Assembly (NCBI RefSeq): GCF_024753565.1 | Contig: NZ_JANTPT010000001.1 | Location: 372,001 to 436,000 of the forward strand | DNA from: Mechercharimyces sp. CAU 1602 | GTDB lineage: Bacteria; Bacillota; Bacilli; Thermoactinomycetales; JANTPT01 | Length of the DNA stretch: 64,000 nt | Direction: 5' to 3' | Part shown: positions 1,908 to 30,965 of the stretch, piece after piece | Numbering within the stretch: the stretch's first letter is position 1 | Layout: each line of letters begins with the position of its first letter | The notes under the pieces: model-generated | What the model was told of the DNA's origin: nothing | Databases searched by the model: none | Seen by the model: only the letters and a program-made list of their open reading frames with translations | Program-made: the position numbers and the translations under genes

Positions 1908-1920
1908 AAGGAGGCGAGCC

Positions 1921-5238: not shown

Positions 5239-5261
5239 CCAGTCGAAAAGGAGTCGATACA

Positions 5262-7020: not shown

Positions 7021-7021
7021 T

Positions 7022-10161: not shown

Positions 10162-10182
10162 CAAAAAATTTGAAAGGATGTT

Positions 10183-11647: not shown

Positions 11648-11673
11648 GAAGGTGATAGCGAATGAGTGTATAA

Positions 11674-11871: not shown

Positions 11872-11890
11872 TACGAAAGGAGGACGAAGA

Positions 11891-12616
11891 TTGAGCGAAG
11901 TTAAGTTAAACGTAGAATTACTCGCCCATACAAAAGTATCCGAAAAGATGGCGTTTGAATTGCTACAATACGTCGGTCCAGGTGTACAGGAGTCACAAGG
12001 ACTCGCTTTGACTGCGATAAGAACCTGTTATTCCGCGAATAAACCGAGCGAAATCGTTGCGAAAGAGGGGAAAAAGTATTTCCACAATGAAGCTACAGAT
12101 GGCGAAAAGGGGGCGGAAGTTGACCGTTTGATTCGGCACATCATGCGCTCCAAGCATACGTCCACGATCGAGCATTTGAGCTATACGTTTGCTATCGAAG
12201 GATTATCACGGTCAGCATTGGCGCAATTGACGAGACATCGATTCTTCTCATTCAGCGTTCAGAGTCAACGGTATGTGAAGATGGGGAGTGACGACCGAAG
12301 TGGCGGATTTGATTACGTCGCGCCTCCTTCATTAAGTAAGTCAGAGAGTTACCATAACGCGATGAGACGTTCACAAGCGGTTTACGATGAATTGCGAAGA
12401 TCAAGTGTGCTTGCTGAAGACGCAAGATTCATTCTCCCAAACGCCACAGCAACGAATCTCGTCATGACCGGGAATCTCCGAGCCATTCTCGACTTCTATT
12501 CGAAGAGGCAAGAAGGAAAGGGCGCACAGTGGGAGATTGCGGAGTTGGCCGAAAGGGTTCGGAGGGAAGTCGTCATGGTTGATCCGTGGGTAGATCCATT
12601 CTTTGACGAGATGTAG
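11891..12616 (+). CDS. thyX: FAD-dependent thymidylate synthase ThyX
   Basis: ThyX makes dTMP from dUMP using methylene-tetrahydrofolate and FAD. The signature RHRFFSFSVQSQRY is near residue 105, matching the RHRxxSxxxxSxR motif that binds dUMP and flavin. The product is 241 residues, of normal length. The start chosen is TTG 11891 after GAAAGGAGG; the ATG at 11849 lies in the previous frame without a binding site. With the preceding dUTPase it forms a dUTP-to-dTMP route independent of host ThyA. Confidence 0.94.
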   Translation: MSEVKLNVELLAHTKVSEKMAFELLQYVGPGVQESQGLALTAIRTCYSANKPSEIVAKEGKKYFHNEATDGEKGAEVDRLIRHIMRSKHTSTIEHLSYTFAIEGLSRSALAQLTRHRFFSFSVQSQRYVKMGSDDRSGGFDYVAPPSLSKSESYHNAMRRSQAVYDELRRSSVLAEDARFILPNATATNLVMTGNLRAILDFYSKRQEGKGAQWEIAELAERVRREVVMVDPWVDPFFDEM

Positions 12617-12625
12617 GGGGAAGAA

Positions 12626-12661
12626 GCCGTGTAGTAAAATACGCTGCGCGGCAAATTTTTT
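12626..12661 (+). terminator. Probable rho-independent terminator after thyX
   Basis: GCCGTG (12626-12631) pairs with CGCGGC (12647-12652), including one G-U pair, and is followed by AAATTTTTT. It is the first clear terminator in the prophage part of the window and would end the long transcript from the left. Confidence 0.6.
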
Positions 12662-12803
12662 CTTTGGAAGTGTCCTAATTCGGAAACACAGGTGAGTGTA
12701 TATAGATAGGACGAAAAAAAATCATCGAGATGTTATCAAACGCGGGCTACCTTGCCCCTATTAAAGATAAGAAAGAAAAAAAGTCCACAAAAAGTGCGCG
12801 AAG

Positions 12804-12832
12804 TTGCTTACTAATGACTCTAAACATTATAG
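12804..12832 (+). promoter_or_regulatory. Possible sigma-A promoter for the second phage operon
   Basis: TTGCTT and TTATAG are separated by 17 bases, upstream of the small gene at 12,857. The match is imperfect, but a new promoter is expected here because a terminator precedes it. The 12,662-12,803 stretch holds no gene I can support. Confidence 0.35.
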
Positions 12833-12856
12833 AGGGAGAAAAAGGAGGAGAAAGGT

Positions 12857-13024
12857 ATGGCTACAAAATTCCTCGACGGGAAAGTAAAGAAAGCGAATCG
12901 ACGACGGAAAGTCCAATATTCCCAAGATACTCGAGCATCGTCAGTCAACCGTTATAACGTCAGAGATTTGCCGAAAGACCACCCCTTAAGAATCAAATAC
13001 GGAGAGGAGAATAGCCATGCGTGA
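12857..13024 (+). CDS. Small basic phage protein
   Basis: A 55-residue basic protein rich in Lys and Arg (KVKKANRRRKV near the N-terminus), starting at ATG 12857 after AAAGGAGG. It overlaps the next gene by 8 bases. Nucleic-acid binding is possible but not shown. Confidence 0.55.
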   Translation: MATKFLDGKVKKANRRRKVQYSQDTRASSVNRYNVRDLPKDHPLRIKYGEENSHA

Positions 13025-13334
13025 GTGTATGACGGGTTTCGATTGTGTGGAGCGTAGAGCGCAAGTGGGTGAAAAAGTCGTAGCTGTAGAGGGACCGGAT
13101 TACCTTCGTGGTCAGCAATTTGAAGTAGGCGATATCCTTAAGATCACAGATCAACGTGGATGCCTCGATGTAGGGGAATTCGGTCAACTCATTGACCAGA
13201 CAGAATATCTAGTTCTAGTGCCGAAAATGAGCGACATGGGCTGGCTTGAGGAACGTATGGAATCGCTTGAATCAGAGGTTGAGGGACTGCGTAGCCAATT
13301 TACCTACTATGTAGAGAAGGAGGCGAAGGTCTAG
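13017..13334 (+). CDS. Hypothetical phage protein, beta-rich with C-terminal coiled coil
   Basis: The 105-residue product has a beta-rich N-terminal part (KVVAVEGPDY, DILKITDQRG) resembling a small SH3-like barrel, then a helical Glu-rich segment. It starts at ATG 13017 after GGAGAGGAG and shares its last base with the kinase start. Function unknown. Confidence 0.6.
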   Translation: MRECMTGFDCVERRAQVGEKVVAVEGPDYLRGQQFEVGDILKITDQRGCLDVGEFGQLIDQTEYLVLVPKMSDMGWLEERMESLESEVEGLRSQFTYYVEKEAKV

Positions 13335-13870
13335 TGAAGATTGCATTGACGGGGAAGATGCGTAGTGGGAAGTCTACAGTTGCGGAGTATCTGAGCGAGA
13401 ATTATGGATTTCATTCTTGCGCATTTGGCGATACGCTCAAACTTTTCGCCAACAAACTGTTTCAACCACGTCAGTTAAAGGATCGCCAACTATACCAATG
13501 GTTTGGTCAAACGATGCGAGAGCGGGAATCGGATATCTGGGTACGGCATTTAGATTACGCGATATACGACTTAGTTACGACCGGAAAGAACATAGTCATC
13601 ACCGATCTCCGACAGCCCAACGAATATCAATACTGCCGTGAGAAAGGGTTCGCAATCATCCGCGTTACCTGCCCTGATGATATACGCCTCCAACGCATGA
13701 GACAAGAAGGCGATTTATTCGACGAAACCACGCTCAATCACGAAACGGAAATGTACATTGACGGATTCGGCGTTGATTTCGAAATTGAAAACGGAGGCAG
13801 ATGGCTTGACATGGCGGAACAGGTTGACGTTATTGTACGGAATCTTCCTTTAATAGAGGAGGCTATGTGA
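13334..13870 (+). CDS. Deoxynucleoside monophosphate kinase
   Basis: The 178-residue protein begins with a P-loop, LTGKMRSGKSTVAEYL, and has the phage dNMP-kinase layout: FGDTLK after the loop, an ITDLRQPNE strand (Walker B region with Asp), and IRVTCPDDIRLQRM in the lid region. It phosphorylates dNMPs to dNDPs and, with ThyX and the reductase, completes precursor supply. It starts at GTG 13334 after AGAAGGAGG. Confidence 0.85.
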   Translation: MKIALTGKMRSGKSTVAEYLSENYGFHSCAFGDTLKLFANKLFQPRQLKDRQLYQWFGQTMRERESDIWVRHLDYAIYDLVTTGKNIVITDLRQPNEYQYCREKGFAIIRVTCPDDIRLQRMRQEGDLFDETTLNHETEMYIDGFGVDFEIENGGRWLDMAEQVDVIVRNLPLIEEAM

Positions 13871-14098
13871 TTGCGTTTCAAACTCATTCACCATGACGTC
13901 ACTGACGACGGAAAATACGAAATGACCTACGAAATCCTCGACTCTCCTGTTTTCTCGTCTGACAGCGAAATTATTTACGAGTTTACAAAAAGACCCCCGT
14001 ATAAGAACGCCAGGGAAAACGGAGATCTTGTCGTCGTTCGAAACAGCTTTGGAACTCCGGCTTTCATTGAATGGATATATTATCCTGACGGCTTCTAG
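13871..14098 (+). CDS. Hypothetical phage protein
   Basis: A 75-residue, beta-rich protein with no recognised motif. It starts at TTG 13871 immediately after the kinase stop, with GAGGAGG upstream. It is the last + strand gene before an opposing - strand gene. Confidence 0.55.
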   Translation: MRFKLIHHDVTDDGKYEMTYEILDSPVFSSDSEIIYEFTKRPPYKNARENGDLVVVRNSFGTPAFIEWIYYPDGF

Positions 14099-14103
14099 CT
14101 ACT

Positions 14104-14487
14104 TTACTTTCCGATATTATCGTCAGGCGCGTCATAGTCTTCGAGCTTGAACGTTAAAGCACCGTTCTCTTTTCCATCGAAGAAATAACGGCGGGATTGA
14201 TTCATAGGCAGTTTATAGCGTTGCACGAGTTTGCGGACTGTCGTATAGCCTCGCTGATCAATTTTATATGGGCGTGTATCGGTTAGTCGAACGACGTCTG
14301 GTTTCGCGAGGGCGATGCGATGGTTCACCGGATCGTATCCGATGTACAGCGAAATTGGGATATCGACGCAGGAGAGTTCGACGCGAGCGAGCTTATTTAA
14401 AGATAGACGTTGTTGTTTGTCGATCGTGACGAACATGTCCGTTGCTCTATGACCGCCAGGTGTTGCACTGATCCATTCGATTGACAT
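14104..14487 (-). CDS. Putative phage regulator, the only - strand gene in the visible prophage
   Basis: A 127-residue protein read against all its neighbours. Its middle (DKQQRLSLNKLARVEL, then a YIGYDPVNHRIALAKP strand) loosely resembles AbrB-type swapped-hairpin DNA-binding proteins, but I do not claim membership. The start is ATG 14487, eight bases after GGAGG, rather than ATG 14502, which overlaps that site. It has its own promoter with a near-palindrome. Isolated, oppositely oriented and independently transcribed genes in prophages are often lysogeny regulators or cargo; that is inference from position. Confidence 0.5.
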   Translation of the reverse strand: MSIEWISATPGGHRATDMFVTIDKQQRLSLNKLARVELSCVDIPISLYIGYDPVNHRIALAKPDVVRLTDTRPYKIDQRGYTTVRKLVQRYKLPMNQSRRYFFDGKENGALTFKLEDYDAPDDNIGK

Positions 14488-14536
14488 ATGTATAACCTCC
14501 ATTGCGAGGGAATCCGTTACATTACAGGTTTCTACT

Positions 14537-14566
14537 ATTATATTCGGTTTACCTGCGTAATTGCAA
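14537..14566 (-). promoter_or_regulatory. Sigma-A promoter for the - strand phage gene, with inverted repeat
   Basis: Read on the - strand, TTGCAA (14561-14566) and TATAAT (14537-14542) are 18 bases apart. The interrupted inverted repeat ATTAC-A-GGT / ACC-TGC-GTAAT spans the core promoter (14521-14562) and could be an autoregulatory operator. Confidence 0.6.
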
Positions 14567-14601
14567 GATAGTTACGGAATTTTCGGAAAGGAGATGATCG
14601 A

Positions 14602-15072
14602 ATAGGAACCGTCAAGCACGACATCGAAGCGGCACATCGCCGTTATGCGCAAGACTACGACTGTATGACGCCTCGCGGAGTTCATCGTTTATTGCGGGAC
14701 CAATTCAAGTTAGGCGTAAGGTGTTACGACAAAGGCGATTACGCAGGTAAGGATATCTTAATGGATTTACACAAGGCTTACTGGAAAGCGGGGTTAACCG
14801 AGCGTCAGAAAGAGGCGCTGTATTACGTTTACGTGCGGGACTTACGACAAGTGGACACGGCGTTTGAGATGCGGATTACGCAGCAGGCTGTAGCGGACCA
14901 CATTATCGGAGCGCTGAAACGGATAGCGAAGGTTTACGAAGTTTGGAGCGAAGAAACAGGGAAGGAGGAAACGGAAGCCTGTTATGTTTGCGGAAAGTAC
15001 CTCCTATCCGGCGAAGAAAGAAGCGGAATGTGTATTGAGTGTGAGCGAAGGGAGGCGACAAGCGATAAGTAA
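14602..15072 (+). CDS. Sigma-70 region 4-like protein with zinc ribbon
   Basis: The central segment (LTERQKEALYYVYVRDLRQVDTAF, then ITQQAVADHIIGALKRI) is a sigma region 4 helix-turn-helix. A C-terminal CYVCG...CIEC set forms a likely zinc ribbon. No region 2 is visible, so it is not a complete sigma factor. It may redirect host RNA polymerase as a late-gene activator. The binding site AAAGGAG is followed by ATA at 14602, in frame and 8 bases away; the first ATG, at 14665, has no binding site. The start is therefore uncertain. Confidence 0.68.
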   Translation: MGTVKHDIEAAHRRYAQDYDCMTPRGVHRLLRDQFKLGVRCYDKGDYAGKDILMDLHKAYWKAGLTERQKEALYYVYVRDLRQVDTAFEMRITQQAVADHIIGALKRIAKVYEVWSEETGKEETEACYVCGKYLLSGEERSGMCIECERREATSDK

Positions 15073-15334
15073 ATTGCGAAATCACTACGGCTACGGCGTT
15101 AGAAAAGACGAAGAGTCTTTCGCAGACAAGATACCGCCTGGCGGAAACTGGCGAAGTCTAAGTCGAGAGGATCAACTAGTTTTCTGGAACGGAAAGATAC
15201 CCATTAGTGGAGGTAGCACTAATGGGTTGCGCAAGAAAGCGTGGGATGAGCCTGCTGGAACTATTACGACTTCACCGATTCAAAAACTATCGTGCCAGCT
15301 TCATCCTGGCGCAAATATTGAAAGGAGTGGATAT
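15065..15334 (+). pseudogene. Fragment of a second C5 methyltransferase target-recognition region
   Basis: About 90 codons in the same frame as the methyltransferase downstream. They read like the C-terminal half of another C5 enzyme: KIPPGGNWRSL, then AWDEPAGTITTSP, then LHPG, which is the family pattern around the recognition domain. The ensuing methyltransferase already has its own complete set of motifs and its own ATG with AAAGGAG. The fragment starts near ATA 15065, after GGGAGG, and contains a perfect 10-bp hairpin at 15200-15226. It may be a recombination remnant, or an N-terminal extension if translation runs through. Confidence 0.45.
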
Positions 15335-16441
15335 ATGGAGTTTAACGTGACACCAACGGAACCGTCGAATGGACTCACGATTGCGGAGTTGTTCTGTGGA
15401 GGCGGATTGATGGCGGTAGGGTTAAAGGAAGCGGGATTCGATATTGTCTGGGCAAACGATGTAAATAAGCAAGCAATAAAGGCATACCGACACAATGTAG
15501 GAATGCACGCGGTTCTAAGTGATATAACGGAGATCGATCCTGAGGGTATTCCGGATACAGATATTATTGCCGGAGGACCACCGTGCCAAGACTTTAGCGT
15601 AGCAGGTAAGCATGACGGGGAGGAGGGGAAGAATGGCCGGCTAGTATGGGCGTATTTGAACATTATTGAGCGCAAACAACCGAAAGCTTTTATATTTGAA
15701 AACGTCAAGGGATTGATAGGAAAGCGCCATAGAGAAACGTTTGACTCTCTTATTACGAAGTTTAACGAAATTGGGTATCGAATTAGTTGGCGACTGATAA
15801 ATGCATGGGACTACGGAGTGGCGCAGAAGAGAGAACGCGTGTTTATCGTGGGTATACGAAGAGATCTCGGTTTTGAATTTCAGTTTCCGGAACCTGATCC
15901 CGCAGACTACCGGACACAGGTATTGTGTGATGTAATTGGCGATCTACCTGTACCTGATCAGAATTGGAACGTTAAGAAGCCTGAGCGTAAGGCGAATATG
16001 AGCGCACCGAGTCCAACGATTACGACACAGTTTTATTGCCAGACAGTGGAGATTTCGAATCACGATGAGAAGTCATACTGGACTCCGAAAAGTGATTATA
16101 GCTACGACCAAGCTAATCGCGTTCAATCCCTTAGTCAACCGTCAAATACGATACCCGCTCATCATAATTCCGGACAGCCGATCCACCCGCAGTCAAAGCC
16201 ACGTAGATTCACCGTTAGAGAATGTTTGCGAATCCAATCCGCGCCTGACTGGTACGTCATACCGGAAGACTTATCGTTATCTGCGCAGTATCGCATTGTC
16301 GGAAATGGCGTAGCATGTCGGGTGGCGTGGTATCTCGGAAAAGCATTAGCGCAACAATTAAACGAATATTCGAAAAAGGAGGTGTTAGATTGGCGTTCAC
16401 GATTACAGACGACTATAAAAAACAATTCGAAGGCGCAGTAG
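15335..16441 (+). CDS. DNA (cytosine-5) methyltransferase
   Basis: The 368-residue enzyme transfers a methyl group from SAM to cytosine C5. Motif I is IAELFCGGGLMAVG, motif IV is GGPPCQDFS with the catalytic Cys, motif VI is FENV, motif VIII is QKRERV, and motifs IX-X are RECLRIQ and YRIVGNGV. All are present in order. No cognate restriction enzyme is nearby, so protection of phage DNA from host restriction is the likely role. It starts at ATG 15335, eight bases after AAAGGAG. The frame is open upstream through the fragment at 15,065, so a longer form is possible. Confidence 0.9.
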   Translation: MEFNVTPTEPSNGLTIAELFCGGGLMAVGLKEAGFDIVWANDVNKQAIKAYRHNVGMHAVLSDITEIDPEGIPDTDIIAGGPPCQDFSVAGKHDGEEGKNGRLVWAYLNIIERKQPKAFIFENVKGLIGKRHRETFDSLITKFNEIGYRISWRLINAWDYGVAQKRERVFIVGIRRDLGFEFQFPEPDPADYRTQVLCDVIGDLPVPDQNWNVKKPERKANMSAPSPTITTQFYCQTVEISNHDEKSYWTPKSDYSYDQANRVQSLSQPSNTIPAHHNSGQPIHPQSKPRRFTVRECLRIQSAPDWYVIPEDLSLSAQYRIVGNGVACRVAWYLGKALAQQLNEYSKKEVLDWRSRLQTTIKNNSKAQ

Positions 16442-16854
16442 ATGCGTTGCTTGCGAAGGAGGCGTTTATTGAGTGCAGGGAATTTCGAATGAGCGTGGTT
16501 AACGACTTGATAACGGAGTATACGCATTTTATCGGGGAATCACCTGACACAAAGCAACTGGAACGATTGACTGATTATATTCTTCACGAAGAGATAAACG
16601 ATCCACATCCGGATAAAGCGAGTCGAGAAGAGTATCCGATATTTAGCGATAGGCAACTGGAGAGGCGACGGAGTGGCGAGGTTTCGTTTAAGAAGGCTAG
16701 AGATGTTGGAACGGATGGACGATTTTATCGGAAACCGAGGAGACGGTTTTACGATAAGGATACGCATAAGCGGAATAAGACGCGGAAGAAGCGATATACG
16801 AAGGATACTAAGGCGAGCGAGGTACGAGTGTATTCGTTGGAAAATTCGGATTGA
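16390..16854 (+). CDS. Hypothetical phage protein with basic C-terminus
   Basis: A 154-residue protein starting at TTG 16390, after AAAGGAGG, inside the 3' end of the methyltransferase gene. The first half is acidic and helical. The second half is very basic (RKPRRRFYDKDTHKRNKTRKKR region) and may bind nucleic acid. No family recognised. Confidence 0.55.
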   Translation: MAFTITDDYKKQFEGAVDALLAKEAFIECREFRMSVVNDLITEYTHFIGESPDTKQLERLTDYILHEEINDPHPDKASREEYPIFSDRQLERRRSGEVSFKKARDVGTDGRFYRKPRRRFYDKDTHKRNKTRKKRYTKDTKASEVRVYSLENSD

Positions 16855-16908
16855 TGGCGGTTATAGGACAAATTATGAGATCCGTATATTTAAATGAGGT
16901 GAGAGAGG

Positions 16909-17061
16909 ATGAAAGGGAAGGCTAAAAAGAGATATGAGCTTAAATTAGCGATACCATCAAAAGAATTAAATAAAGAAGAGCTTGCTAAGGCAAAAGAAAA
17001 AGAGGCTTTAGTAATAGATTTCCTTATTAATAAATACCTTTCAAAAGAAGCTGGCATATAG
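16909..17061 (+). CDS. Small basic helical protein upstream of the integrase
   Basis: A 50-residue Lys/Glu-rich protein with ATG 16909 after GAGGTGAGAGAGG. It has a lower GC content than the replication block, like the integrase next to it. Small basic proteins beside large serine integrases can be recombination directionality factors; nothing in the sequence proves that role here. Confidence 0.5.
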   Translation: MKGKAKKRYELKLAIPSKELNKEELAKAKEKEALVIDFLINKYLSKEAGI

Positions 17062-17074
17062 CCGGCTCTTTTGT
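17049..17074 (+). terminator. Probable terminator before the integrase gene
   Basis: AGCTGGC (17049-17055) pairs with GCCGGCT (17061-17067), including one G-U pair, followed by CTTTTGTTT. It separates the integrase from upstream transcription. A TATAAT at 17076 and a perfect 12-bp palindrome TTGTGTACACAA (17094-17105) follow, suggesting separate control of the integrase. Confidence 0.55.
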
Positions 17075-17123
17075 TTATAATAAGTGTAATTCATTGTGTA
17101 CACAAAAAAGAGAGGTGGATTCG

Positions 17124-18728
17124 GTGTCTGTAGCTATATACGCAAGAGTATCTACACTGACACAAGTTGATGGTACTAGCCTGGACTCGCAAATAGACTT
17201 TTGCCAGAAGAAAATAAAAGAATTAGGTATAGGTGGAAGTATAGAGGTATTTAGAGAAGAGGGAGCATCTGGCGAGAATATTGAACGTCCGCAAATGGAC
17301 AGGTTGCGTGAGAACGTGAAGAATGGAAGTGTAACTCACGTGATTTGTACTCATCCGGATCGGTTAAGCCGGAATCTAGTCGATAAACTATTAGTTTGCG
17401 GGGAATTTGAAAAAAGCAATGTAGAACTTATTTTTGTTGATACCGAATACAAAAATACGCCGGAAGGACAGCTATTTTTTAATATGCAGTCCGCTATTGC
17501 ACAGTACGAATTAGCGCAGATACGAAAACGAACTGTGACTGGACGTATAAAAGCGGCCGAAAGAGGTCAAATCCTCCCTATGAGAACGACACCTTACGGT
17601 TACGAATTTCAGGACGGGAAGCTAGTAATCAATGAGGAAGAGGCTAAATTCGTTCGTATGGTATATGATTGGTATGTATACAAAAACCTTACATTACGAG
17701 AAATCGGAGAAAAGTTACACGAATTAGGGGCAAAACCACGACGAGGAAAGCAATGGAACGCGTCATCTATAGGGAGAATATTGAATTCAGAGACGTATGC
17801 AGGGACTTTTTATTATAATCGCAGAGAAACGAAGAAGGTTAAAGGTAAAACAAAATCGGGTTATGTACGTAAAGCCATATCGATGCGTGATAAGGACGAT
17901 TGGGTCTCAATAACTGTGCCTGCGATTATTGATAAAGCGCTTTTCGAGTTAGCGCAAAGGCAACGAGAGAAGAATAAAACGTTTTCTGGTAATGTTAAGC
18001 ACGAGTATATGCTAAAGTCGTTACTCCGTTGCGGACATTGTGGACGTAAGTGGCAGGCTACAACGTATTCCGGAAGAAAAGATCAACGGTATAGAAGCTA
18101 TCGTTGTCCAAATAAATTCCCTAGAAAATATGGAGGAGAAGTGAAAAAGTGCGATACACATGCAATTAGAGCAGAACAACTGGAAGATTTCATCTGGGGG
18201 ATAGTATTTGAGATAGTCTCTCAACCTAAGAAATATATAGAAAGGATCGGTGAGGGAGCGAAGGCGCACGAAATAGAAATTAACGAAACCATCGGCGCTT
18301 TAAAGATACGTTTTGAAGACCTAAACAAACAAAGAGAAAAGCTGAAATATATGTTCCTAAACGACCTCATTACAGAGGAAGAAATGCAAAGAGACATGTC
18401 AGGCATCAACAAAGACATAGGAATTGTAGAGAATCAGATCAAGGCGTTGCAATCAAATCAGGATGAGCAAACGAATAAATTGTTGGCAAAAGAGAGTTTT
18501 GAATCAATGATGGAAGGGATTCAGAAAATGCTTAAAGAGGAATTGTCAATGAAGGAAAGGAGACACATTATAAGTTTGATCATGGATGAAATAGTGCTAT
18601 ACTTTGACGGCGACGAGGCAAAAGTGATTTGCTTTGGTCCTATGGAGCATATTTTAAAAGAGGCTAAATTGAGTGGAGATATTGACATTGAATCGTGTTC
18701 ACAACGCTTTGCAAATATGGGCTACTAA
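17124..18728 (+). CDS. Large serine integrase / excisionase recombinase
   Basis: The 534-residue recombinase carries the resolvase catalytic domain (YARVSTLTQ with the nucleophilic Ser, GTSLDSQ, HPDRLSR), the recombinase DNA-binding domain (about residues 165-270), a zinc ribbon (CGHCGRKW ... CPNK ... KKCDTHA), and a Glu/Lys-rich coiled coil typical of this class. It would integrate and excise the prophage. It is convergent with truncated sigK, as spoIVCA is with spoIVCB in Bacillus subtilis, and its last 30 bases lie inside the sigK frame. The start is GTG 17124 after GAGAGGTGG; the ATG-less upstream frame to 17094 lacks a binding site. Confidence 0.95.
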
Positions 18729-22499: not shown

Positions 22500-23777
22500 T
22501 TAACTGGCACGCACGATCGAGGCGCAGAAATGCTCCATATCCATATGCTCGTATAAGGATTGTTGTACATCATGGAGGGTGAGGTGAGAGAGAATCGTGG
22601 ATAGGCGGAAGAGATCTGCTCGGTTTAAATAATAACGAGTAAATTGTTTAGCAATCCATTCGAGTGAGTTGAAGGATGTTAAAATTTCCCCCATTTTTTC
22701 TTTACGTAGCAGCTCCCACTCTGCTAGATGGATCCCCTCATTGAGTAGGCGTGGAAGTTCTGCTTGTACGCGTTGGAGCAGTGTGTCTGGATCGGAAGTG
22801 GTACCGTGCATGAAAGAGAAGCCAAAGCCTTGTGCCAAACAATACTCGGCTTTAAAGTCTACGTCTAAGAGGCCCTCATTGTGAAGGCTATTATACAACC
22901 ATGATCCTTTGCCAAAGAGTGCTTGTAAAGCTAATTGTGTGCATAGCTCTTGCTTTAAGTAGTCGTCACCCATAGCATCTACACGTGCTTCTTTAAATCC
23001 GAAGTAGCAGATGTTATTACCGGTGGGAAGAGAAATATCTGTTATTGGACGGGAGGGGTGGATCGGCTCTTCAACAGGTTTGCGCTCTACGTTAGGGCGA
23101 GTAGGGAAAGTTTTAAGTGCTTGATTTCGACGGATATGCTCTATAGTTTCTTCAGGATCGATTGGTCCTACGACGAAGAGCAGCAGTTGACTAGGATGAT
23201 AAAAGGTTTCGTAACAAGTACGTAGAAGCGATTTGTTGATGTGTGAGATCGATTCAGAGGTGCCTGCAATATCGATGCGGACGGGATGACGGTGGTACAT
23301 GGCGCTTAATAAGCCAGCGTAGGCGCGCCAGATAGGATGATCGTGATACATATTGATCTCCTGTTCAATAATCGGCTTCTCCTTATCAATATTCTCATCT
23401 GTTATGTATAATTGTTGCACAAAGTCGAGTAAGTGATGGAGATTATTCTCTACTTGATGAGTGCAACTCATCAGGTAAGAAGTTTGCTGGTAAGAAGTAA
23501 TGGCATTGATGGAGGCACCTTGATGAGCAAACTTTTGAAATACGTCTTCGTTTGGATCTTCAAACATCTTATGTTCAAGGAAGTGGGCAACGCCGTGTGG
23601 AGCTAATATCTCTTCATGTGGAAGAGAAAAATGCCGATCGACGGAGCCATATCCTGTCGTAAGTGTAGCATACGTCTTGGTGTAGTTTGGTCGGGGAAGA
23701 AGACATATAGTCAGTCCGTTGGCAAGTTGCTCTGTGTAATATCGTTCTTGGAGTAGGGTGTTAGTAAATTCATTCAT
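22500..23777 (-). CDS. M16 family metallopeptidase, YmfH-like (catalytic subunit)
   Basis: The 425-residue protein has the inverted zinc motif HxxEH in GVAHFLEHKMFED near residue 65, with the downstream Glu in PIIEQEINMY near 141, so it is expected to be active. M16 enzymes cleave peptides inside a closed chamber formed by two halves. It overlaps by 4 bases the next gene upstream, which encodes the second half. The same MFS, YmfF, YmfH order occurs in Bacillus subtilis, so the pair may be ordinary housekeeping (linked to EF-P modification in annotation). Given the peptide genes upstream, it could also mature secreted peptides. Confidence 0.85.
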   Translation of the reverse strand: MNEFTNTLLQERYYTEQLANGLTICLLPRPNYTKTYATLTTGYGSVDRHFSLPHEEILAPHGVAHFLEHKMFEDPNEDVFQKFAHQGASINAITSYQQTSYLMSCTHQVENNLHHLLDFVQQLYITDENIDKEKPIIEQEINMYHDHPIWRAYAGLLSAMYHRHPVRIDIAGTSESISHINKSLLRTCYETFYHPSQLLLFVVGPIDPEETIEHIRRNQALKTFPTRPNVERKPVEEPIHPSRPITDISLPTGNNICYFGFKEARVDAMGDDYLKQELCTQLALQALFGKGSWLYNSLHNEGLLDVDFKAEYCLAQGFGFSFMHGTTSDPDTLLQRVQAELPRLLNEGIHLAEWELLRKEKMGEILTSFNSLEWIAKQFTRYYLNRADLFRLSTILSHLTLHDVQQSLYEHMDMEHFCASIVRAS

Positions 23778-25084
23778 CTTAAATCGCCTCCTTCGTCATC
23801 ACCTAGGAAGTAGATGGTATCCAAATAGAGTAATTGAGCCACTTGTTGTACATCTTCTTTACACACGGCCTGGATGCTGGTTTGCAGTTCTTCCCAGGAA
23901 CGCCGCTTTCCACTTAGAACCTGATGATAATCCTCATTGATGAGGTCGATTGCTTGATCTTGTTTTTCCTTGTGTTGATTGATTAAAAGGGCTTTGCTTT
24001 GCGCTAATTCGCTCTCACTGATGTCTCCTGTCTCCATCGCTGCTAACTGTTCTTTAATGATGGTAATTGCTTTATCCTTATTGTGGCTATCAATTCCAGC
24101 GTGGATCATGAATAGCCCCTGATGAGCTTCTAAAGTTGAGGAGGCGTAATAAGCGAGGTTCGCTTTTTCACGTAGCTCCCGAAAGATTTTAGAGTAGGGG
24201 AAAGCTCCTAGAATGGCATGATAGACGAGCAGAGCAGGGTAATTTTCACTCCCGAGGGAGAGGGATGTTCGGCAACCGATAGTTAACTTCGCTTGGGTAG
24301 ATTTTACTTGCTCTACTACTTGTGTCACTTTGGGCGAATGAACCTTCTTCTTTGATGTCGGATTTAAAGGCAGAGACTCCACGTTGTCTCTTGTGGGAAA
24401 ATAACCTTCTATAAGCTTAATAATAGAGTGAAGAGGGGCATTTCCTACAAAATAGAGATCAAGAGGGTAGCGTTTGACCCATTCTTGATAGTAGGAAAAC
24501 AAAGACTTTCCATCTACAGCTGGAATATCTTTTCTTCTGCCATGAATATATAAAGAAAATGGCTCGTCTTTGTACATCTCCTCTGTAGCACGATACATCG
24601 CGTAGAGGATGCTGTCATTTTTGAGACCCTCTATCCGTTGGCGCAGATGGCGTTTTGCCAGCTGGACGTGTTCGTCTACGAATTGTCCGTTAGCGTGATT
24701 CGGTTGGAAAAGTAGTTGCGCAAGGAGAGCAAACCCTTCTTCCAAAAGTGGAGGTTGATCGGGAAGATAGGCTTCATTTGCTATCTCTAGTCCCATCTGT
24801 AAAACCTGATAATCCCCTCTCTTTAGTACTTTAGACGTGAGAGTAGCCCCATAGAGTGAGCGTAGTTGTGATTGAATATCCTTTGAAGTTGGTAGCGAAC
24901 GAGTTCCACTTGTTAGGATTTTTGGTAAAAGTGCTGTCTTTGTAACAGATTGGCTGGTTAGGTTTTGCGCGATCATAGCCATAATGGTATTTGTTTTAAA
25001 TTTGTCAGAGAGATAAACGTGGAGCCGCAATCCCTCCAGCTGAATCGTTTCAAATTGAATAAGTGTGGTTTCCATAGATGCCAC
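23774..25084 (-). CDS. M16 family peptidase-like protein, YmfF-like (inactive partner)
   Basis: The 436-residue protein has the M16 fold but no HxxEH: the equivalent region reads LLPKILTSGTRSLP. It is therefore probably the non-catalytic half that completes the chamber with the YmfH-like protein, whose gene starts before this one ends. C-terminal half motifs such as LREKANLAYYASS (the M16 Arg/Tyr substrate-binding region) are present. The start is ATG 25084 after AAGGGGTGGC. An internal ATG at 25075 is an alternative. Confidence 0.82.
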   Translation of the reverse strand: MASMETTLIQFETIQLEGLRLHVYLSDKFKTNTIMAMIAQNLTSQSVTKTALLPKILTSGTRSLPTSKDIQSQLRSLYGATLTSKVLKRGDYQVLQMGLEIANEAYLPDQPPLLEEGFALLAQLLFQPNHANGQFVDEHVQLAKRHLRQRIEGLKNDSILYAMYRATEEMYKDEPFSLYIHGRRKDIPAVDGKSLFSYYQEWVKRYPLDLYFVGNAPLHSIIKLIEGYFPTRDNVESLPLNPTSKKKVHSPKVTQVVEQVKSTQAKLTIGCRTSLSLGSENYPALLVYHAILGAFPYSKIFRELREKANLAYYASSTLEAHQGLFMIHAGIDSHNKDKAITIIKEQLAAMETGDISESELAQSKALLINQHKEKQDQAIDLINEDYHQVLSGKRRSWEELQTSIQAVCKEDVQQVAQLLYLDTIYFLGDDEGGDLR

Positions 25085-25113: not shown

Positions 25114-26349
25114 TTAACTGCTTTGTACCTCAACGTGTAGTTGCTCTTTCTTCTTAGGGGCTAGCGTGATCCATACTGCAGCGATAAAACCTAGTACAAA
25201 GAGGAGGGAGGCTAGTTGAAAGAGCAATGTAATAGAGAAAAATGCTTTTAAGCTCCCCACTGCAGCCATGGCAAGCACCATCGCTCCCGTGAAGAGGGGA
25301 TTGAGAATACCGCTGACGCGCCCAATGTAAGCTTCTTCTACTTGTAGAACAACGAGAGTATACACCCCGATTTGTATAAGAGGCATAACAAATCCGACAG
25401 CCACTTCAGCGATCAAGGTAACCCATAGCCACTCGGAAAATCCAATAATAGAGACTCCACCTGCACTAATCACCATGCCGATGGTGAGCATTTTATGTGG
25501 TGGTAATTTTTTAGAAAGAGCTACTCCCATACCAGAACCGATAATCATGCCGAGACCATTGGCGATCATCAACCATTGTAATGACTCCTTAGGTAGTTGT
25601 AATTGCTCTGTGACGAGAAAGATGTTTAATGGTTGAATGAGACCTCCAGAGATCCCTACAGTAATAAAACAGGCTCCAAGGAGAAGAAGTTCTCTGCGGG
25701 AGAAGACATAGCGGAATCCATCCAGCATTTCTTGGTGTACTTTGCGATTGCTTTTGCTTTTAACCGTCTCGTCTTTAGGTAGGAAAGTGAGTACAAGTGC
25801 AGAAAGTGCAAACGAAATCCCTGTTAATACAATTGCCCAGCTGATTCCGAATTGCTGGTAAATGGCTGTTCCGATTACGGGTCCTAAGATAATAAAAAGC
25901 GATGTGGTTGTTTGATAGTAAGAGATACTTTGTTGTAAGTGCTCCGCCGATACATGTGCTTTAAATAATTTGCGACCGGAAGGCTGTGAAAACTGGGATA
26001 GGATAGAAGAAAATAAGGTAGCGAAAAAGATTACTTTCCATGTGCCAAATACGAGTGTAAGTAAGACGATGAAGATGGAGACTGAGCTTAGAAATGAACA
26101 CCAAAACATGGTTTGTTTTGGTCGCCATCTGTCGGCAAATGTACCCCCGATAAAGGAGAAGAGAAAAATGGGTGCGTACTCAGCGATGGAGATCATAGAG
26201 ATCGCAATGGCGTTTCCATTGGTTTGTTCCATCACAAATAGCAGAATAGCAAAGTTACGAATCCAGATGCCGATCTGTAAAAAGAGATTGGATAACAAAA
26301 TATATCTTACATATTTATTTTGAAATAGCGGAAAGGTTTTTGAAATCAT
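25114..26349 (-). CDS. MFS exporter (MFS_3/EntS-type)
   Basis: The 411-residue protein has 12 predicted membrane helices and the MFS loop motif GGTFADRWRPKQ between helices 2 and 3. It probably exports a small molecule or peptide by proton antiport. In Bacillus subtilis an MFS gene (ymfD) precedes ymfF-ymfH, so the link to the M16 pair is conserved. Here a nine-copy peptide gene array lies directly upstream on the same strand, which makes peptide export an attractive but untested role. The start is ATG 26349 after GAGGGGAG. Confidence 0.82.
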   Translation of the reverse strand: MISKTFPLFQNKYVRYILLSNLFLQIGIWIRNFAILLFVMEQTNGNAIAISMISIAEYAPIFLFSFIGGTFADRWRPKQTMFWCSFLSSVSIFIVLLTLVFGTWKVIFFATLFSSILSQFSQPSGRKLFKAHVSAEHLQQSISYYQTTTSLFIILGPVIGTAIYQQFGISWAIVLTGISFALSALVLTFLPKDETVKSKSNRKVHQEMLDGFRYVFSRRELLLLGACFITVGISGGLIQPLNIFLVTEQLQLPKESLQWLMIANGLGMIIGSGMGVALSKKLPPHKMLTIGMVISAGGVSIIGFSEWLWVTLIAEVAVGFVMPLIQIGVYTLVVLQVEEAYIGRVSGILNPLFTGAMVLAMAAVGSLKAFFSITLLFQLASLLFVLGFIAAVWITLAPKKKEQLHVEVQSS

Positions 26350-26390
26350 GTTTCTTTCGCTCCCCTCACATTCTTCACATATTAAAAGTA

Positions 26391-26446
26391 TAGTGGAGAT
26401 GGGAGTGCCTATGTATTACTTTATTCATGTATGGTAGACACTCCCC
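26391..26446 (-). terminator. Imperfect hairpin between the peptide array and the MFS gene
   Basis: AGTGGAGATGGGAGTG (26391-26406) pairs imperfectly with the CACTCCCCACTCTACT near 26,430. On the - strand it is followed by ATACTTTTAA. It may partly stop transcription leaving the array. The stem has mismatches, so this is tentative. Confidence 0.3.
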
Positions 26447-26484
26447 ACTCTACTACATTAAGCTAGGTTTGAGATCAGATAGTT

Positions 26485-26526
26485 TTAGTCTGGGATAATG
26501 ATAATGATCACCGTGTTGCGTTCCAT
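26485..26526 (-). CDS. Mini-ORF copy 9 of the array (last transcribed), MERNTVIIIIIPD
   Basis: Carries a silent ATC to ATT change in the Ile run; the peptide is unchanged. About 135 bases separate it from the MFS start. Confidence 0.6.
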   Translation of the reverse strand: MERNTVIIIIIPD

Positions 26527-26572
26527 CACGCGTCACCTCCTAAGGTAAGGTAGGGTAAGAGTTAGAAGGTTT

Positions 26573-26614
26573 TTAGTCTGGGATAATGATGATGATCACC
26601 GTGTTGCGTTCCAT
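26573..26614 (-). CDS. Mini-ORF copy 8 of the array, MERNTVIIIIIPD
   Basis: Consensus coding sequence with AGGAGG 9 bases upstream. Confidence 0.6.
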   Translation of the reverse strand: MERNTVIIIIIPD

Positions 26615-26658
26615 CACGCGTCACCTCCTAAGGTAAGGTAGAGGGTAAGTTAGAAGGC

Positions 26659-26700
26659 TTAGTCTGGGATAATGATGATGATCACCGTGTTGCGTTCCAT
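26659..26700 (-). CDS. Mini-ORF copy 7 of the array, MERNTVIIIIIPD
   Basis: Consensus coding sequence. The region before its binding site differs by one base (ACATTAGGAGG), and the CGCGCG variant lies between binding site and ATG. Confidence 0.6.
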   Translation of the reverse strand: MERNTVIIIIIPD

Positions 26701-26745
26701 CGCGCGTCACCTCCTAATGTAAGGTAGGGTAAGTTTAGAAGGTTC

Positions 26746-26787
26746 TTAGTCTGGGATAATGATGATGATCACCGTGTTGCGTTCCAT
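26746..26787 (-). CDS. Mini-ORF copy 6 of the array, MERNTVIIIIIPD
   Basis: Consensus coding sequence with AGGAGG 9 bases upstream. Confidence 0.6.
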   Translation of the reverse strand: MERNTVIIIIIPD

Positions 26788-26830
26788 CACGCGTCACCTC
26801 CTAAGGTAAGGTAGGGTAAGTTAGAAGGTT

Positions 26831-26872
26831 TTAGTCTGGGATAATGATGATGATCACCGTGTTGCGTTCCAT
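26831..26872 (-). CDS. Mini-ORF copy 5 of the array, MERNTVIIIIIPD
   Basis: Consensus coding sequence with AGGAGG 9 bases upstream. Confidence 0.6.
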   Translation of the reverse strand: MERNTVIIIIIPD

Positions 26873-26915
26873 CACGCGTCACCTCCTAAGGTAAGGTAGG
26901 GTAAGTTAGAAGGTC

Positions 26916-26957
26916 TTAGTCTGGGATAATGATGATGATCACCGTGTTGCGTTCCAT
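26916..26957 (-). CDS. Mini-ORF copy 4 of the array, MERNTVIIIIIPD
   Basis: Consensus coding sequence with AGGAGG 9 bases upstream. Confidence 0.6.
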   Translation of the reverse strand: MERNTVIIIIIPD

Positions 26958-27001
26958 CACGCGTCACCTCCTAAGGTAAGGTAGGGTAAGTTAGAAGGTT
27001 C

Positions 27002-27043
27002 TTAGTCCGGGATAATGATGATGATCACCGTGTTGCGTTCCAT
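27002..27043 (-). CDS. Mini-ORF copy 3 of the array, MERNTVIIIIIPD
   Basis: Carries a silent change, CCA to CCG, in the Pro codon. The peptide is unchanged and the AGGAGG spacing is kept. Confidence 0.6.
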   Translation of the reverse strand: MERNTVIIIIIPD

Positions 27044-27087
27044 CGCGCGTCACCTCCTAAGGTAAGGTAGGGTAAGTTAGAAGGTTC

Positions 27088-27129
27088 TTAGTCTGGGATA
27101 ATGATGATGATCACCGTGTTGCGTTCCAT
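27088..27129 (-). CDS. Mini-ORF copy 2 of the array, MERNTVIIIIIPD
   Basis: Identical coding sequence to the consensus, preceded by AGGAGG at the standard 9-base spacing. Confidence 0.6.
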   Translation of the reverse strand: MERNTVIIIIIPD

Positions 27130-27171
27130 CACGCGTCACCTCCTAAGGTAAGGTAGGGTAAGTTAGAAGGC

Positions 27172-27213
27172 TTAGTCTGGGATAATGATGATGATCACCG
27201 TGTTGCGTTCCAT
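27172..27213 (-). CDS. Mini-ORF copy 1 of the array (first transcribed), MERNTVIIIIIPD
   Basis: The start ATG is 9 bases after AGGAGG. It is closest to the secreted 44-residue peptide gene, 44 bases downstream of that gene's stop, with no terminator between. The product is an uncleaved-looking short hydrophobic peptide with an acidic end. Confidence 0.6.
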   Translation of the reverse strand: MERNTVIIIIIPD

Positions 27214-27257
27214 CGCGCGTCACCTCCTAAAATGGGGTAGTGCATGAATGGTGTACC

Positions 27258-27392
27258 TTACTTGATGAAATCAACTGGATCACAAATCGTGATGTCACAA
27301 ACCTCGTCGCTCGGCCCACTCTGGGCGGGGGTGACAGCTATCATGCCAAATACAGCAAGCAGTATCGACAACACAGTTGCAGTATGTTTCAT
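27258..27392 (-). CDS. Small secreted peptide precursor with two cysteines
   Basis: A 44-residue product with a basic start (MKH), a hydrophobic core (LSILLAVFGMIAV) and a likely signal-peptidase site after Thr-Pro-Ala-Gln-Ser. This would leave about 19 residues containing CDITICDPVDFIK, with two Cys that could form a disulphide. The start is ATG 27392 after AAGGAGGTG. It lies 40 bases downstream of the methyltransferase gene and 44 bases upstream of the first mini-ORF. It could be a signalling pro-peptide of Phr type, an antimicrobial peptide or an immunity factor; the sequence does not decide. Confidence 0.65.
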   Translation of the reverse strand: MKHTATVLSILLAVFGMIAVTPAQSGPSDEVCDITICDPVDFIK

Positions 27393-27432: not shown

Positions 27433-28188
27433 TTATTTTTGACACGTGATCACGATATCGGTCGAATCGGTGGTGTATGGTGAGGAGGAGAAATCCCCAT
27501 ATACTTTTTCAGTATGAAAACCAGCTTGGTGAAGCATCGATACTACCTCAGTTACTGCGAACAACCGCATCCTTGTATTGTAGTGTTGTTTCTCTCCACT
27601 GGAGGAGAGTCGCGTTTCTTGAATGTGAAGCGTACTTGTAATGGGATCCAATCCTTGTTTTCTAAGAACGTAGCCACCATTGCCATCATCAAACCAGACA
27701 AGATGTTGAAAGTTTTTAAGGACATACTCGCGATTTGCAAGATGAAGCAAAAGGGTTCCGCCTGGCTTTAAGCAACTATGCATGGATTTCAACATTTTTA
27801 AGCTATCTTCATCCGACTGGTAAACAATCGAGGTTTCAAGGTTAAGAACGACATCATATTCTCCTGTTCCTTGAAAGAATCGTGCATCCGCTTGGATTAA
27901 GGAAACTTCTTGGTTTTGCTCTTTAATATGTTGTAGATAGTATTCATTAATATCTAAGCCCGTGATGTCATACCCTTCAGCGGTTAAAGGAAGTAAATGT
28001 CTTCCATACCCACAGCAGAAATCTAGTACCTTTGGTTGTGGAGAGAGGCGATTGAGATATTCGGTTAAGAATGTATATTGCCTACGTAACATCAGATTTT
28101 CTAAGTAGTGGTGAGAGTGCATATAGGATGAATCGAAAAATTGTGTCACTTCATTGATAGAATCGGGTTGCTTTGTGTGAATGCTCAT
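27433..28188 (-). CDS. Class I SAM-dependent methyltransferase
   Basis: The 251-residue protein has motif I as VLDFCCGYGRHLLPL near residue 55, an acidic residue at the end of strand 2 (GLDINEYYL), and DVVLNLETSI at motif IV. It transfers a methyl group from SAM to an unknown acceptor. The start is ATG 28188 after AAGGAGG. It heads a run with the secreted peptide, the mini-ORF array, the exporter and the peptidases. Peptide modification is therefore possible, but a small-molecule substrate is equally plausible. Confidence 0.82.
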   Translation of the reverse strand: MSIHTKQPDSINEVTQFFDSSYMHSHHYLENLMLRRQYTFLTEYLNRLSPQPKVLDFCCGYGRHLLPLTAEGYDITGLDINEYYLQHIKEQNQEVSLIQADARFFQGTGEYDVVLNLETSIVYQSDEDSLKMLKSMHSCLKPGGTLLLHLANREYVLKNFQHLVWFDDGNGGYVLRKQGLDPITSTLHIQETRLSSSGEKQHYNTRMRLFAVTEVVSMLHQAGFHTEKVYGDFSSSPYTTDSTDIVITCQK

Positions 28189-28341
28189 AGTTTGTTCCTC
28201 CTTCGATTCGGTGTGCTTCTCTTTAATAACACTATAATGGGGATCGTTTGTTAAAAAAAAGAAGTAAATTCAACTCAAATTTTTTTGTTGTTTTTATCTG
28301 AATTTCGCTTGAAGTTTTACTATGATAGTAGAAAAGAAAAA

Positions 28342-28386
28342 CACCTCATGCGTAACCGTCCGTATTAGACGGTTACGCATGAGGTG
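28342..28386 (-). terminator. Strong terminator after the 54-residue peptide gene
   Basis: A perfect 19-bp stem (28342-28360 with 28368-28386) with a 7-base loop. On the - strand it is followed by TTTTTCTTTTC. It isolates the methyltransferase run from the genes to its right. The 28,189-28,341 gap otherwise shows only a weak -10-like TATAGT. Confidence 0.88.
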
Positions 28387-28403
28387 CGTCAGGAAGAGGT
28401 GAT

Positions 28404-28568
28404 TTAGAAGGGGCCTGGATCCTCAGAACCATTAGGATTTTCAGATGATGCAACAGTGTGGAGTGCGGAGATTTGAATACTTTTCGAAGGAGTTAATTCT
28501 GCTACAAAGCAAGTGGTTAGCAGTGAGAAGGATATGGTTGTCAATAAAATATGAGTCACTCTGTACAT
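28404..28568 (-). CDS. Small secreted peptide precursor (possible signalling peptide)
   Basis: A 54-residue product with a hydrophobic export signal (THILLTTISFSLLTTCFVA) followed by a hydrophilic tail ending NPNGSEDPGPF. The start is ATG 28568 after AGGAGGTAATCCT; an upstream extension of the frame has no binding site. The layout matches Phr/PapR-like pro-peptides, whose C-terminal residues become the signal. A HTH-TPR regulator is encoded about 1 kb away in the opposite direction. The Cys in the hydrophobic region might instead suggest a lipoprotein, but the lipobox context is poor. Confidence 0.6.
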   Translation of the reverse strand: MYRVTHILLTTISFSLLTTCFVAELTPSKSIQISALHTVASSENPNGSEDPGPF

Positions 28569-28638: not shown

Positions 28639-29274
28639 TTAAAGTCCCACACTCTCTTTAAACCAATGCGAGGCGATGATAGGGGAAAGAAAATAGTCCG
28701 GTTGACTGTCTAGATGAAAGGCAGTGATTAAATATTTTTCATCTAAGCCTCCATGGAGCTGGAGCAAATGAGTGACGCGCAACACGATTTCATCCAATTC
28801 TGTTCGAATGTGATTCCAATCTGGTGTACTAGATGGAAGCATCAACGCGTACCCGATAGCGAGATCAGAGTGAATGTCATAGGTGTGTTTGAAGAGCGAG
28901 AGATCACTTTCCTCTTCATTTTCAATATTCTTAATAAAGTGAAAGTACTCATCATGTACATAGAAAGTGTAAATACCGGAATGGTTAAAACCAGAGACCA
29001 AAGTGGGATCTAACATAATCAAGGTTGGAAAAATATACTTTGTAGTAAATCCGTTATAAAAAGCCTCATATAAAATTTGTGCTAAGGTATTTTTGTGGAT
29101 CATGTAGGATCTGCGTCGGGATGAATACTGAGTGGAAACATCCTTTTCGATCGTGAAGCTTACATTTTTTTGCTTCTTATTTATATCCGCATTTAGTTGG
29201 AAAATGGGCTTTCGCAAGATGTCCGATCTGGGGTCAGGATCTCTTGCTAGTTCTACGATCGGTCTTTTCTTCAA
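28639..29274 (-). CDS. Hypothetical protein
   Basis: A 211-residue soluble protein of mixed composition with no recognised motif. The N-terminus is basic, and the centre carries aromatic-rich strands (IYTFYVHDEYFHF). The start is TTG 29274, after AAAGGAGGG. The 54-residue peptide gene lies 70 bases downstream with no terminator between them, so the two are probably co-transcribed. It is divergent from the HTH-TPR regulator. Confidence 0.6.
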   Translation of the reverse strand: MKKRPIVELARDPDPRSDILRKPIFQLNADINKKQKNVSFTIEKDVSTQYSSRRRSYMIHKNTLAQILYEAFYNGFTTKYIFPTLIMLDPTLVSGFNHSGIYTFYVHDEYFHFIKNIENEEESDLSLFKHTYDIHSDLAIGYALMLPSSTPDWNHIRTELDEIVLRVTHLLQLHGGLDEKYLITAFHLDSQPDYFLSPIIASHWFKESVGL

Positions 29275-29645: not shown

Positions 29646-30965
29646 ATGGATATAGGAGAAAAGATTAGACAGTTGCGGCTTCATAAAAAGCTGACTCAGA
29701 GGGAGCTAGTCGAGGGGATTTCTTCTATTACATATTTAAGTAGAATTGAAACAGGTGATATTAACCCTTCACTCTCTTTTCTGGAAGAGATATCGGGCCG
29801 ATTGGATGTACAGGCTGCGGATTTACTGGATAAAGATAATAGTGATGCTGCAGAACGAATTTTACACATCAGTGAAAGGTATCGCTGCAAACAAACGTTG
29901 ACAGAAGCAGATCTCTCTTTTCTAAATTTACATACATCAGAGATGCATTCGACGGAAACATACGTGAAGATGTATACGACGTTGATTCGATACTATTTAG
30001 ATCAAGAAAAAGATGTAGAGACATCAGAACAGTACTATGTACAGTCTCGTCACTTTGTCCCACTCACAGTTCCAGACGAATTAGCGACAGACTACTATTT
30101 CTATTATATTTCATGTGGAAATCTATTTTATCTAAAACAAGACTACATTAAAGCCAACCATTATTACTGTCTGGCGGAACAGTTTTCTAACCATGTGGAC
30201 GATGCTATTGCTCAGGCAAAATTGTACCTTAATATCAGTCTAGTGAAGAAAGAAATGATGGAAGATAAATATATTAGTCTTGTCTATGCACAAAAAGCAT
30301 ATGAAATATTTAGAGAGAAGCAGGAAGAGCATATGATGATTAACACGTTAATCATCATGGGAGTATTGTTCCACTTGACCAAAAACTATAAGAAATCACT
30401 TAATATTTTGCATGAAGCGATGCAACAAACACCAGCTGATGACAAGTTATCTCTTGGCTTGATCTTATATAATTTTGGACGCGTATACGTGGGAGAAAAG
30501 GAGTTTTCCAAGGCTATTGAACACTTCCAACTGTCCATCGAACGCTATCGTGAGTGTGGAGAGGAACACCGAATCACTTACCCTTACTTACGTCTGATCG
30601 AAGTATACACAGAGCTGAAAGATTGGAATCAAGTAGAATCTTATCTAGGTAAAGCGATGCAGGGACTTGATTCTAAAAACATGAGTTATATGCACTTAAA
30701 GTTACTATCGATTCAAGCACGATTCTTTTTATTACGTGGTAATGAGAATAGATATGAGCGTGAGATGCAAAAGATTATTGAGTCGGGAGCGATAGAAGGA
30801 CATCTCAAGCTCTCTATTCAATTGGCGTCCCAACTGGCCCATCACTACTATGAGAAACGCGCCTACAAGAAGTCGGCCAACTATTTTAAGTTAGTATCTG
30901 ATTATAACGATCAACTAACTAAGTTAATGATCAATAATGACGAAGCAACGATTTGGGAGTTTTGA
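29646..30965 (+). CDS. HTH-TPR transcriptional regulator (RRNPP-like)
   Basis: The 439-residue protein has an N-terminal Xre-type helix-turn-helix (KIRQLRLHKKLTQRELVEG, residues 5-60). About eight helical repeats of TPR type follow (for example LYNFGRVYVGEKEFSKAIEHF). This is the layout of PlcR, NprR and related regulators that bind exported-and-reimported oligopeptides. The start is ATG 29646 after ATAGGGG; a longer frame from 29,577 adds residues before the HTH and lacks a binding site. The secreted peptide gene at 28,404 is a candidate partner. Confidence 0.82.
   Translation: MDIGEKIRQLRLHKKLTQRELVEGISSITYLSRIETGDINPSLSFLEEISGRLDVQAADLLDKDNSDAAERILHISERYRCKQTLTEADLSFLNLHTSEMHSTETYVKMYTTLIRYYLDQEKDVETSEQYYVQSRHFVPLTVPDELATDYYFYYISCGNLFYLKQDYIKANHYYCLAEQFSNHVDDAIAQAKLYLNISLVKKEMMEDKYISLVYAQKAYEIFREKQEEHMMINTLIIMGVLFHLTKNYKKSLNILHEAMQQTPADDKLSLGLILYNFGRVYVGEKEFSKAIEHFQLSIERYRECGEEHRITYPYLRLIEVYTELKDWNQVESYLGKAMQGLDSKNMSYMHLKLLSIQARFFLLRGNENRYEREMQKIIESGAIEGHLKLSIQLASQLAHHYYEKRAYKKSANYFKLVSDYNDQLTKLMINNDEATIWEF

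Follow-up and report, generated by a model that had tools for sequence, protein, structure and literature searches.

Tiny precursors are already known from biarylitides (5 residues) and microcin C (7 residues), as are multi-copy precursors. In biarylitides the precursor gene is tiny, its leader is very short and the peptidase is separate; a class I methyltransferase is part of the myxarylin cluster (the N-terminal methyltransferase BytZ/CorZ), and some Lysinibacillus carry multiple precursor copies (PMC13417212, PMC12951456), the 5-residue precursor gene bytA being present in up to six (PMC13417212). In microcin C, the minigene mccA is accompanied by a modifying enzyme and followed by a hairpin that favours precursor dose over the downstream genes (PMC6495379). 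Two further activities are relevant here: class III lanthipeptides are matured by M16B peptidase pairs, which act first as endo- and then as aminopeptidases, with cluster-encoded pairs outperforming housekeeping ones (PMC8960859), and the epimerase MslH of the lasso peptide MS-271 epimerises the C-terminal residue of its precursor (PMC10406935).

We analysed a stretch of 64,000 nucleotides from Mechercharimyces sp. CAU 1602 (the window), in which nine tandem minigenes encode one 13-residue peptide. We consider it probable that these minigenes provide the precursor for an as yet undescribed RiPP-like gene cluster, with a precursor of 10-13 residues in the family and a dose raised by the nine copies; the cluster is possibly a new RiPP class. 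The original prediction had called such a dose array foreign to described systems, which was too strong, since multi-copy tiny RiPP precursors have been reported, for example for biarylitide (PMC13417212). The locus shares with biarylitides the features named above, but these depend on a cross-linking P450 and on aromatic residues, which are missing here from the cluster proteins and the peptide respectively, and their precursors differ in sequence and in length. It shares with microcin C the minigene, the modifying enzyme and the hairpin, but has an Ile-rich sequence and an array instead of one gene, and no MccB-type ThiF adenylating enzyme was found among the cluster proteins scanned. The likeness to the MS-271 system lies in a CapA-like protein of the relatives, which aligns with MslH over its whole length and keeps eight catalytic or metal residues, whereas no lasso B/C enzymes were recognised, the cluster in the window has no MslH-like protein and the peptide is different. 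Class III lanthipeptides (paenithopeptins, PttP1/PttP2) likewise have an M16B pair in the cluster (PMC8960859), which here lies at 22500-25084 and is nearer the housekeeping type, and a regulator of the same type as ours stands at such a cluster in genome G036, but the precursor here lacks a Ser/Cys pattern; no LanKC was found among the cluster proteins scanned or, by eye, among the listed ORFs of the window, a part of which were profile-scanned. Among named RiPP methyltransferases, profile and PDB searches placed the daptide and linaridin (CypM) N-methyltransferases closest, the daptide score being far below its cut-off.

Results

Nine identical minigenes in tandem

On the minus strand, between 26485 and 27213, nine ORFs of 13 codons were found to encode the identical peptide, MERNTVIIIIIPD, which has no aromatic residue and no N-terminal export sequence. 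Each minigene starts at the higher coordinate of its line:

27172..27213, minus strand, minigene copy 1 (MERNTVIIIIIPD); upstream sequence unique, SD-to-stop as in the other copies
27088..27129, minus strand, minigene copy 2
27002..27043, minus strand, minigene copy 3, with the silent change CCA>CCG
26916..26957, minus strand, minigene copy 4
26831..26872, minus strand, minigene copy 5
26746..26787, minus strand, minigene copy 6
26659..26700, minus strand, minigene copy 7
26573..26614, minus strand, minigene copy 8
26485..26526, minus strand, minigene copy 9, with the silent change ATC>ATT

Start-to-start spacings were 84, 86, 86, 85, 85, 87, 86 and 88 bp, and in every unit AGGAGG is followed by nine bases and then ATG, with GTG immediately 5' of the ATG in six of the nine units. 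By TRF, the repeat spans 26485-27230 (8.7 copies, score 1341). Both the ORF starts and the TRF result confirmed the arrangement originally predicted, in units of 84-88 bp.

Linkers were compared with the SD-to-stop segments in an alignment of units 2-9, unit 1 being preceded by unrelated sequence. Gaps occurred in 6 of 33 linker columns and in none of the 57 SD-to-stop columns (Fisher p = 0.0018), with 8 and 3 variable columns respectively, and all indels of the array were confined to the linkers, as had been claimed. The three variable SD-to-stop columns comprised one T/C difference two bases 5' of the ATG and the two silent codon changes. The earlier statement that changes within the ORFs are silent therefore held for both of them, but two silent changes out of two are weak evidence on their own (p about 0.05-0.09).

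Separate translation and selection of each copy, as first proposed, is well supported by comparative sequence evidence, most strongly because single-copy minigenes stand behind orthologous methyltransferases in two other families. The array itself is present once in its own genome, and a DNA similarity search of 100 relatives returned the self-match only (0/100).

Minigenes behind orthologous methyltransferases in other families

Two ORFs lie upstream of the array:

27433..28188, minus strand, class I SAM methyltransferase of 251 aa, directly upstream of the array, with close orthologs in genomes G020 and G329
27258..27392, minus strand, ORF of a 44-aa secreted-looking peptide (MKHTATVLSILLAVFG...ICDPVDFIK) whose N-terminus is signal-like and which contains two Cys; located between the methyltransferase gene and the array

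The 44-aa ORF had no relative in other genomes of the order and is unique to this genome. For the methyltransferase, one close ortholog was found among 42 genomes of the order (G020, 51% identity) and one further ortholog, from another family, among 400 sampled genomes of the class (G329, 44% identity). In G020 the stop of the methyltransferase gene overlaps the start of a single 12-codon minigene, MKRDTVIIIVID (the junction reads AAGGAGGTGAACCGAAATGAAACGTGACACCGTCATCATCATCGTCATCGACTGA), and in G329 a single 10-codon minigene, MKRDRIIIID, lies directly behind the ortholog. The search of related genomes that the original prediction had envisaged thus yielded single-copy minigenes, and no second array at the DNA level. 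The three peptides all begin with M[KE]R[DN], contain a run of Ile and end in Asp (pattern M[KE]R[DN]..III..D), and the pair of methyltransferase and minigene occurs in three families of the class. The gene order in both G020 and G329 is methyltransferase, minigene, MslH-like gene, MFS gene, and the proteins of the two genomes are 42% (methyltransferase), 49% (MslH-like) and 39% (MFS) identical.

The minigene family has three known loci. In all loci scanned, including about 18 with more distant methyltransferases, M[KE]R[DN]..III minigenes were restricted to the three orthologs. Methyltransferase searches gave none in 399 genomes of the phylum, only G329 and G1056 in 400 genomes of the family of G329, no close ortholog in the genome contig set, none in viral contigs and weak matches only in plasmids and phages; the G1056 locus proved to be an unrelated cluster with no minigene. 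A viral look-alike (L037, MKRPTIIII) overlaps another ORF and was judged a chance match. Four other pattern matches among 400 genomes (L023-L026) were also judged, on sequence alone, to be chance, because two backward-pattern controls matched too.

The top NCBIfam match of the methyltransferase was the daptide RiPP methyltransferase (NF041820, 63.8 bits against a cut-off of 175), and PDB matches included the cypemycin N-terminal methyltransferase. The enzyme belongs to a broad family and scores well under the curated cut-off of every named one, so its likeness to the daptide and cypemycin enzymes is a hint and not membership. Single-sequence structure predictions (mean pLDDT 36 and 50) were too poor for use.

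It is unlikely that the peptide gene is functional while its nine-fold array is a neutral expansion, produced by slippage or unequal crossing-over with no selection for dose. The units are near-identical, which indicates that the array is recent or homogenised, and a single copy suffices in the relatives, both as neutral expansion would have it; against this, SD and ORF are intact in all nine copies while the linkers vary, and in other RiPPs yield is increased by having several precursor copies (PMC13417212).

An MslH-like protein in the relatives

The CapA-like protein encoded after the minigene in G020 and G329 had MslH as its sole PDB match (8gq9, E 7e-86, over its whole length). The eight catalytic or metal residues of MslH, taken from PMC10406935 (Asp11, Glu44, Asn87, His88, Asp91, His259, His261 and His295), are all conserved in the relatives' proteins, which score 281.8 bits against NF038314, under the curated cut-off of 700. 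Rhizobial and haloarchaeal replicons commonly carry MslH-like CapA proteins at a similar level of identity, in amino-acid contexts, and an epimerase role is for that reason not secure. The MslH-like gene is absent from the cluster in the window, and no close one was found in the genome (none at 1e-40).

On plasmid p19Msa1047-2 of Macrococcoides caseolyticum (L071:2326-2391), an SD-preceded ORF of 21 residues, MAFELCIGEVADEKVTPQEGN, was seen near an MslH-like CapA gene (product 44% identical to that of G020) and a divergent MFS gene, and is possibly part of another small-peptide pathway.

An exporter and an extra M16B peptidase pair behind the array

Behind the array, three genes follow on the same strand:

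25114..26349, minus strand, MFS exporter, TIGR00900-like
23774..25084, minus strand, M16B peptidase subunit of YmfF type, with a second copy in the genome
22500..23777, minus strand, M16B peptidase catalytic subunit of YmfH type, with an HFLEH zinc motif

The MFS protein is the probable exporter of the product; it is 22% identical to the relatives' MFS proteins and is not their ortholog. The standard YmfF/YmfH pair is encoded elsewhere in the genome, and the pair in the window is therefore an extra copy. On this ground the MFS and M16 neighbours of the array were not taken for the ordinary chromosomal ymfD-ymfF-ymfH set, nor do MFS and M16 genes lie together in any other genome of the order in which both could be located. 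The YmfF of the window is closer to the housekeeping copy (48% identity) than to that of the lanthipeptide cluster (34-35%). That cluster, of class III lanthipeptide type, lies at L063:270-9374 in G036 and consists of LanKC, ABC transporters and an M16B pair, the cluster standing next to an ortholog of the RRNPP-type regulator of the window.

As in RiPPs in general, an encoded precursor stands beside putative modifying enzymes in a conserved unit (the pair in three families, the four-gene order in two). No LanKC, YcaO, radical SAM, P450, ThiF or lasso B/C enzyme was recognised in the window's cluster, which leaves methylation as the only candidate modification in the window.

The peptide could instead be used unmodified, as a leaderless secreted hydrophobic antimicrobial or signal, with the methyltransferase acting elsewhere. 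The adjoining MFS exporter, the breadth of the methyltransferase family and the lack of another maturase in the window would all suit this reading, which we nevertheless regard as improbable: methyltransferase and minigene have been kept together across three families, and in G020 the stop of the one overlaps the start of the other. Known leaderless bacteriocins are much longer than the minigene peptide.

The neighbouring regulator has a candidate signal of its own

Upstream of the methyltransferase and separated from it by a stem lies a putative signalling module:

28341..28387, minus strand, terminator-like stem of 20 pairs, between the signalling module and the methyltransferase-minigene unit
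28404..28568, minus strand, Phr-like pro-peptide of 54 aa (...NGSEDPGPF)
28639..29274, minus strand, protein of 211 aa, homologous to proteins encoded next to the regulator in G015 (38%) and G034 (31%)
29646..30965, plus strand, XRE-TPR (RRNPP-type) regulator, divergent and about 2.4 kb from the array

Regulator orthologs were found in G036, G037 and G039, the G036 copy lying directly before the LanKC cluster. In G015, an ortholog with 48% identity is followed by three tandem, nearly identical Phr-like pro-peptides (L083:8682-9364), which end ...GTEDPAPH or ...GTEDPRPH, matching the ...NGSEDPGPF of the pro-peptide in the window. By this comparison, the 54-aa pro-peptide is the regulator's own probable signal.

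The original prediction had suggested an SHP-like pheromone, and the minigene peptide might be the signal of this regulator in the SHP/Rgg or Phr/Rap manner. The regulator is near and the Ile-rich core is reminiscent of SHP peptides, but the pro-peptides of the window and of G015 together make the minigene peptide an unlikely signal: the regulator is probably served by a Phr-like pro-peptide whose C-terminal motif recurs in G015, where no minigene was found at the regulator ortholog locus. Conversely, G020 has the minigene but yielded no regulator ortholog, and the peptide does not carry an export sequence. We therefore regard the pheromone reading as very unlikely. The module probably ties expression of the cluster to cell density.

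A hairpin follows the minigenes in all three loci

Between the array and the exporter gene, a strong stem-loop was predicted:

26390..26457, minus strand, RNA stem-loop (-27 kcal/mol, z -2.4)

Similar hairpins were predicted between the minigene and the next gene in both relatives (z -3.1 and -3.0), so that one stands 3' of the minigene or minigenes in three of three loci. The terminator between mccA and mccB of microcin C has the same relative place (PMC6495379), and by this analogy hairpin and nine copies may both raise precursor over enzyme.

Such hairpins are also what would be expected if the minigenes were regulatory upstream ORFs attenuating translation of the exporter behind them, and an Ile run resembles the ilv leader peptides. 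We give this little credence, as nine separate initiations would be unnecessary, the gene after the minigene varies by locus (MFS or MslH-like), and conservation extends to the M[KE]R[DN] N-terminus and the final Asp and not to Ile codons alone. An Ibs-like type I toxin array silenced by antisense RNA, also raised in the original prediction on account of the small hydrophobic peptide and of TGGGATAAT on the plus strand of each unit, is extremely improbable, because the hydrophobic core, at 4-6 residues, falls short of the length needed to span a membrane, no plus strand promoter match was found inside the array, enzyme and exporter partners are conserved, and TGGGATAAT, which had been taken for an extended -10-like antisense promoter, is a by-product of the codons (the reverse complement of ATT ATC CCA, Ile-Ile-Pro) and absent from the other two loci, whose differing codons cannot carry it.

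Discussion

For the RiPP-like pathway that we favour, we infer the modifications, the product and the activity as follows. Ribosomes would make large amounts of a short precursor, in which M[KE]R[DN] would serve as the N-terminal recognition patch, followed by an Ile-rich core with Asp as its last residue, and the nine copies with their hairpin would lift it over the enzyme, as the mccA/mccB terminator does in microcin C. The methyltransferase would methylate the precursor, and in this organism the duplicated M16B pair would trim it and the MFS protein export the product, while in the relatives the MslH-like enzyme probably epimerises the C-terminal residue. Expression would probably follow cell density through the RRNPP module. 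The likeliest product is a small bioactive peptide, secreted as an antibiotic or as a signal.

More tentatively, the three loci may define a new RiPP class of near-leaderless, Ile-rich precursors of 10-13 residues (M[KE]R[DN]-core-D) that undergo methylation and, in part of the family, C-terminal epimerisation by an MslH-type metalloenzyme outside lasso pathways, with one lineage setting the dose by nine tandem minigenes; we hold this class assignment to be nearly as probable as not. A limited search of the open literature turned up no prior description of the precursor family or gene set. Ordinary gene finding misses precursor genes as small as 30-42 bases, so that entire families of peptide natural products can go unnoticed, and the locus gives a searchable enzyme signature in the methyltransferase, which the MslH-like enzyme accompanies at two of the three loci. 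For minigene precursors, it would also take the strategy of setting dose by tandem copies as far as nine identical genes, and place an MslH-type enzyme with a linear tiny peptide, outside lasso biosynthesis.

Other features of the window

Phage-like genes occupy positions 1-18728 of the window, up to a large serine recombinase (17124-18728) that lies a few kb from the cluster, and a mobile context of the cluster is possible. Inside this prophage-like region, Rfam identified a group I intron (8321-9190), in which the ORF 8511-9149 may encode a homing endonuclease. A T-box leader (Rfam) was found at 47171-47402, directly before a large ORF (47450-49900). Two adjacent large ORFs lie at 54285-58297, the second beginning with a P-loop kinase motif, and may resemble the bacterial RNA repair pair Hen1/Pnkp.
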